Assembly: GCA_030765265.1 (NCBI GenBank)
Contig: JAVCCZ010000071.1
Coordinates: 1-40,796, forward strand
From: Candidatus Erginobacter occultus
Lineage (GTDB): Bacteria > Auribacterota > Erginobacteria > Erginobacterales > Erginobacteraceae
DNA: 40,796 bases
Direction: 5' to 3'
The first letter of the stretch is position 1; the number at the start of each line of letters is the position of its first letter. The notes under the pieces are model-generated. The model saw only the letters and a program-made list of their open reading frames with translations, had not been told where the DNA came from and did no database searches. This document shows, in pieces, positions 3,298-33,149 of the stretch. Position numbers and translations under genes: made by a program.

Positions 3298-4550
3298 AGC
3301 TCTTCCGGCTCCGTTCTTTCTGAAGGTTCTTCCCCGGCCTCCGCTTCCTCCCCTGGTCGCGCCAGGTCATCCGGGATCGCTTTTCTCACCTTGGCCCCGA
3401 GCCGGCGGAGTTCCTCCACCCGGCCGACCAGGTTGCCCCGTCCCTCGCCCAGCCGCTTGAGCGCCAGGTCGAACGACTCCGAGACCCCGGCCAGCCGTCT
3501 TTTCGCCTCGACCATCGTCTCCGCGATCCGGGCCACCTGGTCGTAGAGCCTCCCCGCCCGGTCGGCGATCTCGGCGGCGTTGCGGTTCTCGTTTTCCCGC
3601 CGCCAGATCTGGGAGATCAGCTTCAGGGTGATCATCAAGGTGGCCGGCCCGGTGATGACGACGTCGGTCCGGGCCAGGTCGTAAAAGAGGTTCTGGTCGG
3701 CCCCCACGGCCGCCCCGTAGGCCGGTTCCAGGGGGATGCACATCACCACGAAGTCCAGGGTCCGGTTGCCGAGCAGGGAGGTGTAATCCTTCTCCCGCAG
3801 TTCCTCGATATGGTTCCGGACCGACTTCAGGTGGTCGGCGAGATGGGCCTGGCGCTCCTCGGGGTCGGCGGCGGACCAGTACCGCTCGAAGGCGGTCAGC
3901 GAGACCTTGGAGTCGACGATCACGGCTTTCTCCCCGGGGAGGTAAACCAGGAAATCCGGTCGCTTCAGCCTGCCGTCGTCGTCCCGCAGCGCGGTCTGGG
4001 CGTCGTACTCCCGGCCCTTTTCCAGTCCCGAGGCCTCGAAGATCCGCTCGACGATCAGCTCTCCCCAGTCGCCCTGGGCCTTGGCGTCGCCCTTGATCGC
4101 CCGGGCCAGGCGGTTGGCCTCATCGCTGACCCGGTTGCTCAGTTCCGACAGCTGACGGACCTGCTCCACCAGCCGGGCCGAGCGCGCGGTGTCGTCGCGG
4201 TGGACCTCGTCGACCCGGTTGCGGAAGGAGGCGAGCTGTTCCTTGAAGGGCTGCAGCAGGTCGGCGAGCCGCTCCCGGTTCTGTTCGGTCAGAACCCGGC
4301 CCCGGTCCTCGAAGATCCGGTGGGCGAGGTTCTCGAACTCCTGCTTCAGGCGGACCTCGGCGTCCTGGAGGAGGGCGATCTTTTCCCCCGAGGCCGCTCT
4401 TTCGTTGTCGAGGACGGTTTCGAGGCGGACTTTCTCCACCCGGCTGTCTTCCAGTTCACCGGCTTTTTTTCTCAACCCGGCGGCCAGGGAGGCGGACAGG
4501 GCGATCGCGGCCAGAAGGGCGGCCGCTAAAATGATCAGGACGATCTCCAT
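3294..4550 (-). CDS. rmuC: RmuC family DNA recombination protein
   Basis: RmuC proteins carry a nuclease-like domain behind a coiled coil; E. coli rmuC limits inversions at short repeats. I start the 418-residue protein at MEIVLIILAAALL (ATG 4550), preceded by GAGGAAT, and not at the 48-residue longer ORF. It has one N-terminal membrane helix (about 1-25), a charged coiled coil (about 30-170), then the RmuC core with AQGDWGELIVERIFEASGL, RPDFLVYLPG, AVIVDSKVSLTAFERY and FVVMCIPLEPAY. The stop of the upstream 74-aa gene overlaps its start (TAATG), and its own stop overlaps lpdA (ATGA). Regulation is therefore probably operonic with lipA. The link between RmuC and lipoate genes is positional only. 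Confidence 0.93.
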   Translation of the reverse strand: MEIVLIILAAALLAAIALSASLAAGLRKKAGELEDSRVEKVRLETVLDNERAASGEKIALLQDAEVRLKQEFENLAHRIFEDRGRVLTEQNRERLADLLQPFKEQLASFRNRVDEVHRDDTARSARLVEQVRQLSELSNRVSDEANRLARAIKGDAKAQGDWGELIVERIFEASGLEKGREYDAQTALRDDDGRLKRPDFLVYLPGEKAVIVDSKVSLTAFERYWSAADPEERQAHLADHLKSVRNHIEELREKDYTSLLGNRTLDFVVMCIPLEPAYGAAVGADQNLFYDLARTDVVITGPATLMITLKLISQIWRRENENRNAAEIADRAGRLYDQVARIAETMVEAKRRLAGVSESFDLALKRLGEGRGNLVGRVEELRRLGAKVRKAIPDDLARPGEEAEAGEEPSERTEPEEL

Positions 4551-4774
4551 TATTCCTCGGGGCCGGGGGGGTCCCGATGTTCCACCTTGACGGTCAGGTT
4601 CGGTTTCACCCCGGCCAGGGCGGGAAGGAGGTGATTCAGGACTTGCTCGGCGGTCATCCGGAAGGTCCGGTCGCGTGCCGACACCTTGAACCATCCGTTC
4701 TTGTCCCGGCAGTACTGCTCGGTGAAATTATCGGTCCCGATCCGGATCAGGTAGCTGTCATTGGTCAATTTCAT
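4550..4774 (-). CDS. Small conserved-looking hypothetical protein, 74 aa
   Basis: I do not recognise this protein. The sequence begins MKLTNDSYLIRIGTDNFTEQYC, is rich in charged and aromatic residues and has no membrane segment or signal peptide. I placed the start at ATG 4774 because GAGAGGG lies nine bases upstream. An alternative ATG at 4819 would add 15 residues and overlap the lipA stop as ATGA, so it cannot be excluded. The stop overlaps the rmuC start as TAATG. Tight coupling on the rmuC side argues that it is a real translated gene and part of the lipA-rmuC-lpdA unit. Confidence 0.7.
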   Translation of the reverse strand: MKLTNDSYLIRIGTDNFTEQYCRDKNGWFKVSARDRTFRMTAEQVLNHLLPALAGVKPNLTVKVEHRDPPGPEE

Positions 4775-4815
4775 ATCTGCCAGCCCTCTCTGCCGCCCTG
4801 CGTCTCGACGCGCGG

Positions 4816-5700
4816 TCATTCAGCTTTGGTGAGATTAAATCTTTTCCGGTAATTTATCAAGTCCGCCCACTGTTCCCGGGCCCGGTGGGAGCTGCGGACG
4901 AAGACCCCGGACCGGACGCTGGGGAAACCCAGGGCCTGGGCCCGGCGACGGTACTGGGCGAATTTCTCTTCCGGGCGGGGACGGACCAGGGGAAGATGCC
5001 GGGCGGTGGGGGGGAGGTAGTGGCCGATGGTGAGCATCCGCGCCCCGGCGGTAAAGATATCGGACATCAATTCTTCGATCTCCTCCTCGGTCTCGCCGAG
5101 GCCGACCATAAATCCGGACTTGACCGGGATCTTTCCCGACCGGGCGGCCGAGGAGAGGACCTTCAGGCTGCGCCGGTAGTCGCTGTCTCTCCGGGCCTGG
5201 GGGTAGAGGCGGCGGACGGTCTCCAGGTTGTGGCCGATGACGTCGGGGCCGGCTTCCAAAACGGTATTCAGGGCGGCCGGGTTGCCTCCGAAGTCAGGGA
5301 CCAGGACCTCCACCCCGGATTCAGGCAGTTCTTCTTTGACCCGGCGGATAACGGCGGCCAGGTGGGCGGCCCCGCCGTCAACCAGGTCATCCCGGGTGAC
5401 CGAGGTGATGACCACGAAATTCAGCTTCAGTTCCCTTGCGGCCCGGGCGATCTTCTCCGGTTCCTCCGGGTCAAGGGGGAGGGGCCGGCCCCGGTTGACC
5501 CCGCAGAAGCGGCAGGACCGGGTGCAGATCTCCCCCATCGCCATAAAGGTCAGCTCCCCCGCCGTGAAGCACTCGGAGATGTTGGGGCAGAGGGCCTGTT
5601 CGCAGACCGTGGCCACGCCGAGGGAGCGGAGGCGTTGTTTCAATCGAAAGGTTTTCCCGCCGAGGCGGACTTTCTTCAAGAGATAGGGAGGGCAGCGCAT
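4816..5700 (-). CDS. lipA: Lipoyl synthase
   Basis: This radical-SAM enzyme inserts two sulfurs into protein-bound octanoyl groups to make lipoate. The auxiliary cluster motif CEQALCPNISEC comes first, then the SAM-cluster motif CTRSCRFC, and the family's C-terminal RSS motif (VRSSHRAREQ). The track ORF of 600 residues is far too long. Family homology begins at MRCPPYLLKKVRLGG, so I take ATG 5700 (294 aa); ATG 5745 would give 309 aa. Neither has a clear ribosome binding site, and the region between 5701 and 5817 must hold promoters for both lipA and the divergent helicase gene. No lipB is visible, but downstream lpdA supports a lipoate operon. Confidence 0.95.
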   Translation of the reverse strand: MRCPPYLLKKVRLGGKTFRLKQRLRSLGVATVCEQALCPNISECFTAGELTFMAMGEICTRSCRFCGVNRGRPLPLDPEEPEKIARAARELKLNFVVITSVTRDDLVDGGAAHLAAVIRRVKEELPESGVEVLVPDFGGNPAALNTVLEAGPDVIGHNLETVRRLYPQARRDSDYRRSLKVLSSAARSGKIPVKSGFMVGLGETEEEIEELMSDIFTAGARMLTIGHYLPPTARHLPLVRPRPEEKFAQYRRRAQALGFPSVRSGVFVRSSHRAREQWADLINYRKRFNLTKAE

Positions 5701-17126: not shown

Positions 17127-17277
17127 TAGTGTCGCGTCTTGCAAATAACTTGAATAAGTATGTCATTGCGAGGAGCAGAGCGACGAAGCAATCTATTCCC
17201 TGACAACGGATTGAGATTGCTTCGTTATCGCTCGCAAATGACAATTTAATGGACGTTATTTTTGAAACACTACACTA
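17127..17277. mobile_element. MITE-like nested palindrome carrying a GTCATTGCGAGG core
   Basis: Outer arms TAGTGT...AAATAAC (17127-17149) and their reverse complement (17255-17277) match at 17 of 23 positions. Inside, a second pair of arms begins GTCATTGCGAGGAGC (17162-17194) and is mirrored at 17214-17242. The GTCATTGCGAGG...GACGAAGCAATCT word is a repeat seen in many unrelated bacterial genomes and recurs here at 31549-31700. No ORF is inside. The right end supplies the TAG stop of the deaminase-like gene. Confidence 0.72.
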
Positions 17278-29883: not shown

Positions 29884-31541
<1,658 letters not shown>

Positions 31542-31548
31542 TCCCCCG

Positions 31549-31705
31549 CAGTTTGTCATTGCGAGGAGCGGATCTAACCCCCGGCAGTTTGTCATTGCGA
31601 GGAGCGGATCTAACCCCCGGCAGTTTGTCATTGCGAGGAGCGGATCTAACCCCCGGCAGTTTGTCATTGCGAGGAGCGGAGCGACGAAGCAATCTCTATC
31701 GCCCG
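31549..31705. repeat. 36-bp tandem repeat derived from the GTCATTGCGAGG element
   Basis: Copies beginning CAGTTTGTCATTGCGAGGAG start at 31549, 31585, 31621 and 31657, exactly 36 bases apart. The first three run on into GCGGATCTAACCCCCGG. The fourth continues instead into GGAGCGACGAAGCAATCTC, the full word of the dispersed element at 17162. There are no variable spacers, so it is not a CRISPR. ORFs in the track with repeated MTNCRGLDPLLA and APRNDKLPGVRS are translations of this array and are not genes. Confidence 0.92.
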
Positions 31706-31762
31706 GGCTGACAATATTGTTTTTCGTGAATAATCCGGGTTAGTGATTAGACGACCGAGTTT

Positions 31763-32002
31763 TTACAGGAGGTTGTTTCGATGAACTTTCCTGGTGATGC
31801 TCTGTCCTCCGGCTTCGGAATATTTGTCGAAGAAAAGCTTGTGGAGGGCTGTCCCGCCGCGGAAGATCAGGCTTTCGGAGAGCAGGGGGTCGTTGAATAT
31901 CTCCACCAACATCCGGCTGAGGATCAGGTCCTGCTCAACCATTGACCAGGTCCCCCAGGGGGCCCGGTCGTACCACTCCCTGACATACGATTCCGGGATC
32001 AT
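31763..32002 (-). pseudogene. AbiEii toxin (nucleotidyltransferase) fragment
   Basis: The 79 residues match the beginning of the AbiEii/DUF1814 nucleotidyltransferase toxin: WSMVEQDLILSRMLVEIFND, then the signature SLIFRGGTALHKLFFDKYSE. After KYSE, where active members continue toward the catalytic aspartates, the sequence breaks off and ends at 31763. Full-length toxins are about 250-300 aa, so the catalytic core is lost. Its ATG overlaps the upstream AbiEi remnant (ATGA), the normal arrangement of this toxin-antitoxin pair. The break lies close to the tandem repeat array, which may have taken part in the deletion. Confidence 0.75.
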
Positions 32003-32265
32003 CTCTCGATATCCGGTTGAATCTCCGTATTGACGACTATCTTCCAGCGCCGGTCCTTTTCTCCGTCATCGGCCAATCGGCTATCCAGGGGGCGCCATAA
32101 CAGCTTCTTTTTTTGCAGGGCCAGGTGCAGCAACCCGGTCTTCTCCCCCCAGTCGGCCCGATCAAGAAGCCACCCGACCCGCTGAAAGACCGGGAGCATA
32201 CCGCCCCCATCGACCAAGGCGGGCAGTTTCTCCTCTGAGATGGCCTCGCCGAGTTCGACCAGGAC
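31999..32265 (-). pseudogene. AbiEi antitoxin C-terminal fragment
   Basis: In the frame of the 166-aa track ORF, the last 88 residues (from VLVELGEAISEEKLPALVDG) look like the C-terminal part of an AbiEi-type antitoxin: FQRVGWLLDRADW, LLWRPLDSRLADD, and the ending DRRWKIVVNTEIQPD. Upstream, the frame does not continue the family; the DNA there codes in another frame for a recombinase fragment. The DNA-binding N-terminus is therefore missing. The stop overlaps the toxin ATG. I recognise the family from wording, so a profile search is needed for certainty. Confidence 0.65.
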
Positions 32266-32266
32266 C

Positions 32267-32395
32267 GTGGGAGGCGTAGGTGTGGCGGAGCATATGGACG
32301 GTGACGTTCTTCCTGATCCCGGACTTCCTGACAATTCTCTTGCCGCGGACAGAGAAATCCGTATAGTTAATGACGGACGTATTGTTTCCTGATAG
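32267..32395 (-). pseudogene. Tyrosine recombinase (phage-type integrase) fragment
   Basis: Not in the ORF track. A minus-strand frame of 43 residues reads INYTDFSVRGKRIVRKSGIR followed by KNVTVHMLRHTYASH. The H-x-x-R-H box (HMLRHTYASH, 32267-32296) is the catalytic His-x-x-Arg signature of XerC/D-type tyrosine recombinases. The upstream catalytic Arg and the downstream Tyr are missing. The frame is closed by TGA on the left and runs directly into the AbiEi remnant on the right. This is the debris of a mobile element. Confidence 0.75.
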
Positions 32396-32532
32396 TCAGA
32401 GCTGATTCTCCGGGCTCTCGATTGAATTGGAAAAGTTTCCGGAGGCATTGGCAGGGGCAGGGGGTGGCCGGGGTTAAAATTTGAATTGGAACATTCCATC
32501 GGGTGTGGAGCACAGCGTCTTCCCCGATGCCA

Positions 32533-32553
32533 CCTTTTTTCGCAGAAAAAAGG
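32533..32553. repeat. A/T-rich hairpin abutting the tRNA 5' end
   Basis: CCTTTTTT (32533-32540) and AAAAAAGG (32546-32553) are perfectly complementary around CGCAG. The last two bases are the first two of the tRNA. It may affect tRNA processing or be chance. Confidence 0.5.
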
Positions 32554-32625
32554 GCCCGTAGCTCAGCTGGTTAGAGCACCGGACTCATAATCCGATGGTC
32601 GTAGGTTCGAGTCCTACCGGGCCCA
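32552..32625 (+). tRNA. tRNA with CAU anticodon, probably tRNA-Ile2 (lysidine type)
   Basis: All arms fold. The acceptor GGGCCCG pairs perfectly with CGGGCCC, with discriminator A. The D-arm is GCTCAGCTGGTTAGAGC, the anticodon loop CTCATAA with CAU at 32586-32588, and the T-arm GTAGG-TTCGAGT-CCTAC. CCA is not encoded. CAU could mean elongator Met or Ile2. The pairs C4-G69, C5-G68 and C6-G67 and the A73 match the TilS recognition set, and the GGTCGTAGGTTCGAGTCCTA segment resembles Ile2 tRNAs, so I favour Ile2. The 27-43 pair is a C-A mismatch. Confidence 0.9.
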
Positions 32626-32780
32626 TAAAACAATGCTGATCAACGATTCGACGTTGTTTATCAATCGGCTTTAAGTTGGGAGAGACGAGGCAGGACGAGA
32701 ACCGGGTGAGCTTGGGCTGAGGGGAGCGAAGCAAGCTCTCCCGGGCCCGGCCGGCGGTCATCAAACATAGCGGTTACGAT

Positions 32781-33149
32781 ATGAAGATATTCTACTGGCT
32801 GATCGTAATAATGAATATCACACTGCTGCTCCTGCTCTGGCTCTATATCTACAACCTCTACCTTCAGGATCATATCCCGGTTTACGACTATCCCTCCCAG
32901 GTCTTTCAGTCCGACACGGCGATCCCGGTCATCGTCCTGGGGGTGATCCTCAATACCGCGGCCATCGTGCTGCTGGTCCGGGACAGTCGGCGGCGCCGGG
33001 GCGAAGAGGAATCCCGCCGCCGGAATTTTCCTCCCCCCGACCGGCTCCGGGATATCGCCGAGCAGGACGAGATCAAGGACCTGGAAGATCACCTGGAGCA
33101 GGTCGTGGAGAGGCTGGAAGAATTGCGGAAACACCACGGGCGGGGATGA
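32781..33149 (+). CDS. Small two-helix membrane protein with C-terminal coiled coil
   Basis: I do not recognise this 122-residue protein. Two hydrophobic helices (about 5-27, FYWLIVIMNITLLLLLWLYI, and about 47-66, AIPVIVLGVILNTAAIVLLV) flank a short external loop (LQDHIPVYDYPSQVFQSD). An arginine-rich segment follows (RDSRRRRGEEESRRR), then an acidic-basic coiled coil (DEIKDLEDHLEQVVERLEEL). The positive-inside rule puts the tail in the cytoplasm. The ribosome binding site is weak. The TPR protein gene begins 55 bases downstream in the same direction and could be cotranscribed. Confidence 0.7.
   Translation: MKIFYWLIVIMNITLLLLLWLYIYNLYLQDHIPVYDYPSQVFQSDTAIPVIVLGVILNTAAIVLLVRDSRRRRGEEESRRRNFPPPDRLRDIAEQDEIKDLEDHLEQVVERLEELRKHHGRG

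Follow-up and report, generated by a model that had tools for sequence, protein, structure and literature searches.

Remnants of an AbiE toxin-antitoxin operon and a tyrosine recombinase, probably non-functional, between rpoD and tRNA-Met in Candidatus Erginobacter occultus

The AbiE type IV toxin-antitoxin systems are comprised of the antitoxin AbiEi and the toxin AbiEii, a DUF1814 nucleotidyltransferase (Dy et al., 2014, PMC3985639). The abiE operon of S. agalactiae has a 4-nt overlap, and changes in each of motifs I-IV of its AbiEii abolish toxicity (PMC3985639). The locus described here resembles these systems in gene order, in the 4-nt overlap, in its matches to the PADLOC AbiEi and AbiEii models and in having close homologs in a relative. 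It differs in that its antitoxin is missing the winged-helix N-terminal part and most of the C-terminal Pfam domain, while its toxin is missing motifs II-IV and contains a premature stop. A second family is represented by a sliver that is similar to the tyrosine recombinase / XerA-XerD-integron integrase superfamily (PF00589) in a 24-residue match around the HxLRH box; the first Arg, the Lys, the second His and the Tyr are absent from it, and its subfamily cannot be assigned. The locus shares deletion joins, partial genes and adjoining repeats with the pseudogenised toxin-antitoxin and defence-gene debris of intergenic spacers, and there is no essential difference from such debris, except that the pieces can here be mapped onto an intact relative with unusual clarity. 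A search of the literature on decayed toxin-antitoxin loci found nothing specific.

The window, that is, the whole stretch that was analysed, is 40,796 nucleotides long (assembly GCA_030765265.1, contig JAVCCZ010000071.1). We hold with high confidence that an ordinary type IV AbiEi-AbiEii operon of the lineage and a tyrosine recombinase have decayed into a non-functional relic in its rpoD-tRNA-Met spacer. The debris belongs to known families and to a known kind of pseudogene, and it is a case of ordinary genome decay.

The spacer between rpoD and tRNA-Met

The relic interval (31763-32395) lies between rpoD, which ends at 31541, and an intact tRNA-Met gene. The tRNA gene starts 157 bp past the end of the interval, close to the 160 bases first estimated. 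Three pieces on the minus strand are real: a sliver of a tyrosine recombinase, the C-terminus of AbiEi, and an AbiEii cut by an internal deletion (Table 1). Searches with profiles, which the initial annotation had proposed as its check, matched all three through NCBIfam or PADLOC, with Pfam weaker or silent.

Table 1. Features in and around the relic, with positions in the window.
Feature	Position	Strand	Basis
Partial palindromic repeat in 36-bp tandem units (spacing 36), immediately following the rpoD stop	31543..31680	+	repeat search
MITE/REP-like dispersed repeat unit, GTCATTGCGAGGAGCGGAGCGACGAAGCAATCTC...AATCCGGGTTAG	31660..31745		search of genome and relatives for matches
abiEii relic, C-terminal, residues 202-226, in-frame TAA	31757..31831	-	tblastn with G002 AbiEii; codon comparison
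abiEii relic, N-terminal, residues 1-58, motif I GGT kept	31829..32002	-	PADLOC; 72% to G002 AbiEii
abiEi relic, last 89 residues (174-262), lacking its own start codon	31999..32268	-	PADLOC AbiEi; G002 alignment
Tyrosine recombinase sliver, IVRKSGIRKNVTVHMLRHTYASH, HxLRH catalytic-box motif	32267..32341 (boundary uncertain)	-	Pfam, NCBIfam, local HMM
Putative tRNA promoter TTGCCG-16-TATAGT	32340..32367	+	similar sites 5' of tRNA in three relatives
tRNA-Met (CAT), intact	32552..32625	+	ARAGORN

The gene order dnaG, rpoD, spacer, tRNA-Met, 122-aa gene and TPR gene is kept in a relative of the same genus (G001) and in G004. It is also kept in G002, a relative at the level of the family, up to the end of the contig, which comes after the 122-aa gene. 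Between rpoD and tRNA-Met there are 1010 bp in this genome, 234 bp in G001, 2177 bp in G002 and ~90 bp in G004. The G002 spacer contains unrelated DNA and open reading frames (3769-5669 of locus L045), among them a 389-aa membrane-protein-like frame with no Pfam match above the cut-off and a 181-aa frame. The rpoD-tRNA-Met spacer is a spot where debris gathers in this lineage.

The relic sits 5' of tRNA-Met and upstream of a promoter-like site, TTGCCG-16-TATAGT, which together with the leader on the tRNA side matches G001. From the end of this site to the tRNA there are 185 bp here, 95 bp in G001, 34 bp in G002 and 38 bp in G004. If the site is the promoter of the tRNA, a role that is putative, it lies intact downstream of the debris, and the spacer would tolerate debris for this reason. 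A second copy of tRNA-Met, the 122-aa gene and the TPR gene is found in G001 (contig C87, locus L043, reverse strand 737-927). It is 88% identical to the first copy and sits behind a truncated duplicate of the first ~31 bases of the tRNA; it could have arisen by duplication or rearrangement, or the bin could be mixed.

What is left of abiEi and abiEii

The initial annotation had read an AbiEi C-terminus here, and the PADLOC AbiEi model bears it out (4.7e-14, profile 174-257 of 258); the same piece gave no match in Pfam. Neither the winged-helix N-terminal part nor a complete C-terminal domain is present, residues 174-262 alone being left. Over these residues the piece is 69% identical to the AbiEi of G002, in which the Pfam domain AbiEi_1 covers residues 76-209. 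Its 89 codons are open with no internal stop. Descent from the AbiE paralog on contig C238 of this genome was rejected, as the identity to that AbiEi is 51%, against the 69% to G002. The paralog locus itself (C238, 1-1894) has an intact AbiEi and an AbiEii interrupted where the contig ends; behind them come small genes that by eye resemble a RelE/HigB-type pair. Contig C90 of the same genome carries two AbiE-type pairs.

The N-terminus of AbiEii, read from 32002 to 31829, matches the PADLOC AbiEii model at 3.4e-25 (profile 1-65) and Pfam PF08843 at 0.0068, which is below the cut-off. Residues 1-58 are 72% identical to G002 AbiEii at the amino acid level. They are contiguous in the window with residues 202-226 (13 of 25 identical to G002; tblastn E 7e-4 against 1 kb and 0.002 against the full window), and the two blocks are joined in frame with ~143 codons gone. 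The toxin is therefore cut down, as had been claimed, though by an internal deletion and not by simple truncation; the initial annotation had missed the C-terminal block. Motif I of the nucleotidyltransferase is retained, while the deleted residues 59-201 held motif II (YSEDIDL), a motif III-like KMRALYQRR and a motif IV-like KGRDLFD. The reading frame then reaches a TAA; the last ~39 codons are unrecognisable, and the dispersed MITE-like repeat starts within about 12 bp. A possible gene start on the plus strand at 31781 (AGGAGG followed by ATG) was rejected because it is the antisense of the C-terminal AbiEii codons.

The two genes lie on the same strand as a bicistronic unit with a 4-bp ATGA overlap at 31999-32002, as had been described. 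An intact operon on contig C33 of G002, the one intact comparator, encodes an AbiEi of 262 aa and an AbiEii of 265 aa, and its two genes share the ATGA overlap of 4 bp. Because the overlap is shared by the intact operons of G002 and S. agalactiae, it is native and not a mark of decay. Comparison with the G002 operon upholds the claim that deletions joined separate genes. The further claim that all reading frames are broken at the junctions fails, since the deletion in AbiEii preserves the frame and the junction between AbiEi and AbiEii is the native one. Relative to G002, most differences sit at third codon positions (first/second/third positions 23/18/46 in AbiEi and 14/7/27 in AbiEii), the pattern expected of genes that selection maintained until recently. 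From this bias we infer that most of the divergence is older than the loss of function and that decay by deletion is comparatively recent.

The recombinase sliver and its join to abiEi

The recombinase piece matches an NCBIfam XerA-type profile at 2.2e-6 and, over profile positions 115-139 of 172, Pfam Phage_integrase at 0.001. A local HMM was built from integrases found in this genome and in four relatives. Among all frames of the window it ranked the piece at the top with 23.9 bits (E 1.1e-6), the runner-up reaching 2.4 bits; the maximum among 50 residue-shuffled control sets was 7.7 bits. The HxxR box is present with its surrounding sequence, VHMLRHTYASH. The full catalytic set R-K-HxxR-H-Y is absent, and the sliver stops within about one residue of HMLRHTYASH.

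The initial annotation was right that a recombinase is present and wrong about its length of 43 residues. The match, KRIVRKSGIRKNVTVHMLRHTYASH, is about 22-24 residues long. The longer version was rejected because the frame 5' of the sliver is antisense to the conserved promoter-like stretch, DNA that is kept in G001, and the frame 3' of it is AbiEi in the wrong frame. The outer ~8 bp of the sliver are common to the ancestral spacer, and its boundary is uncertain. Likewise, the recombinase had been said to pass directly into AbiEi. The DNA does abut, the recombinase match ending at 32267 and the AbiEi homology starting at 32268; the frames differ, and hence the two are joined as DNA only, with no fusion protein. 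The CCAC at this join fits both parent types, and GCCACG occurs at the same place in the abiEi of C238. The sequence suggests that the join may have been made by a short-homology deletion.

Intact integrases from this genome and from related ones share 40-50% identity with the sliver. At just this level of identity, the intact integrases of its own genome (C12, C65 and C75) were rejected as its source. A search of plasmids with the sliver returned generic integrases alone, and a search of viral contigs for the exact recombinase/AbiEi junction gave no match. The integrase on contig C75 (485-1084) is an intact integron integrase (TIGR02249, E 6e-141).

State and origin of the debris, and the repeats beside it

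At least three decay events can be recognised in the relic, and their order is tentative. A deletion joined the catalytic box of the recombinase out of frame to abiEi at codon ~174. Within abiEii, ~143 codons were removed in frame, taking the catalytic Asp motif together with motifs III-IV, and its last ~39 codons were lost or replaced at the dispersed MITE-like repeat. The recombinase gene may have been a former neighbour of AbiE or may have been joined later. Very probably the pieces can no longer work. Because no stop interrupts the AbiEi piece and a single one interrupts AbiEii, a short peptide might conceivably still be expressed. Another reading is that what remains of the AbiEi C-terminus is still expressed and works as an orphan antitoxin, an anti-addiction module aimed at the other AbiEii toxins of the genome. 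In S. agalactiae the C-terminal domain of AbiEi alone neutralises AbiEii (PMC3985639), the frame here is open over 89 codons, and there are other AbiEii matches in the genome. We consider such a role hardly credible, since no start codon lies within the homologous part, the ORF that continues its frame upstream runs antisense to the promoter-like site, and the domain is partial, beginning at 174 when AbiEi_1 covers 76-209 in G002. It is also very improbable that the contig joins unrelated fragments by an artefact of assembly. The binned assembly is fragmented (249 contigs, many of them short, 87% complete), the window is one of its contigs, and the joins are sharp with about 4 bp of possibly shared sequence. 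Against this, synteny with three relatives holds on either flank, G001 has a matching leader and promoter-like site on the tRNA side, and the AbiEii deletion, which is in frame, falls within a single gene.

A different question is where the pieces came from. The initial annotation saw one defence/mobile island beside a tRNA, which is unproven: an integrase-bearing island with AbiE as cargo would have integrated at the tRNA-Met region and later shrunk by deletion. This concerns origin and is compatible with the decayed relic, which concerns the present state. In its favour, the recombinase lies next to AbiE in the same orientation, both at 200-800 bp from the tRNA gene, and AbiE systems can stabilise mobile elements (PMC3985639). 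A single island is nevertheless doubtful, and a meaningful link to the tRNA lacks support. No tRNA-derived att-like direct repeat of at least 12 bases was found in 31540-32800, and the debris lies 5' of the tRNA, upstream of the promoter-like site. Integrations at tRNA genes usually use the 3' end of the tRNA. In addition, the local HMM found no integrase in the 14.6 kb that surround the G002 operon, in the 6 kb next to the AbiEi paralog of C238, or in four IMG/VR contigs with related AbiE, and this absence near AbiE genes elsewhere counts against an island as well. The recombinase could be a separate neighbour of AbiE. No intact island was found.

The decayed relic is a clean example of a toxin-antitoxin locus lost by deletion with the adjoining tRNA promoter-like site intact. 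It is also a warning for annotation, as an ATGA overlap plus an open frame is not enough to call such pieces genes; beyond annotation its relevance is little.

The MITE/REP-like repeat next to the relic is found in at least 46 further places among the matches listed in this genome and in dozens in the relatives. A palindromic repeat, GTCATTGCGAGGAGCGAAGCGACGAAGCAATCTC, and its inverse are abundant in this genome and four relatives and occur also at 17157-17194 of the window; some copies are flanked by TAGTGT...ACACTA-like ends. At 31543-31745 a piece of this repeat has grown into the 36-bp tandem units, and another tandem expansion is found in locus L020.
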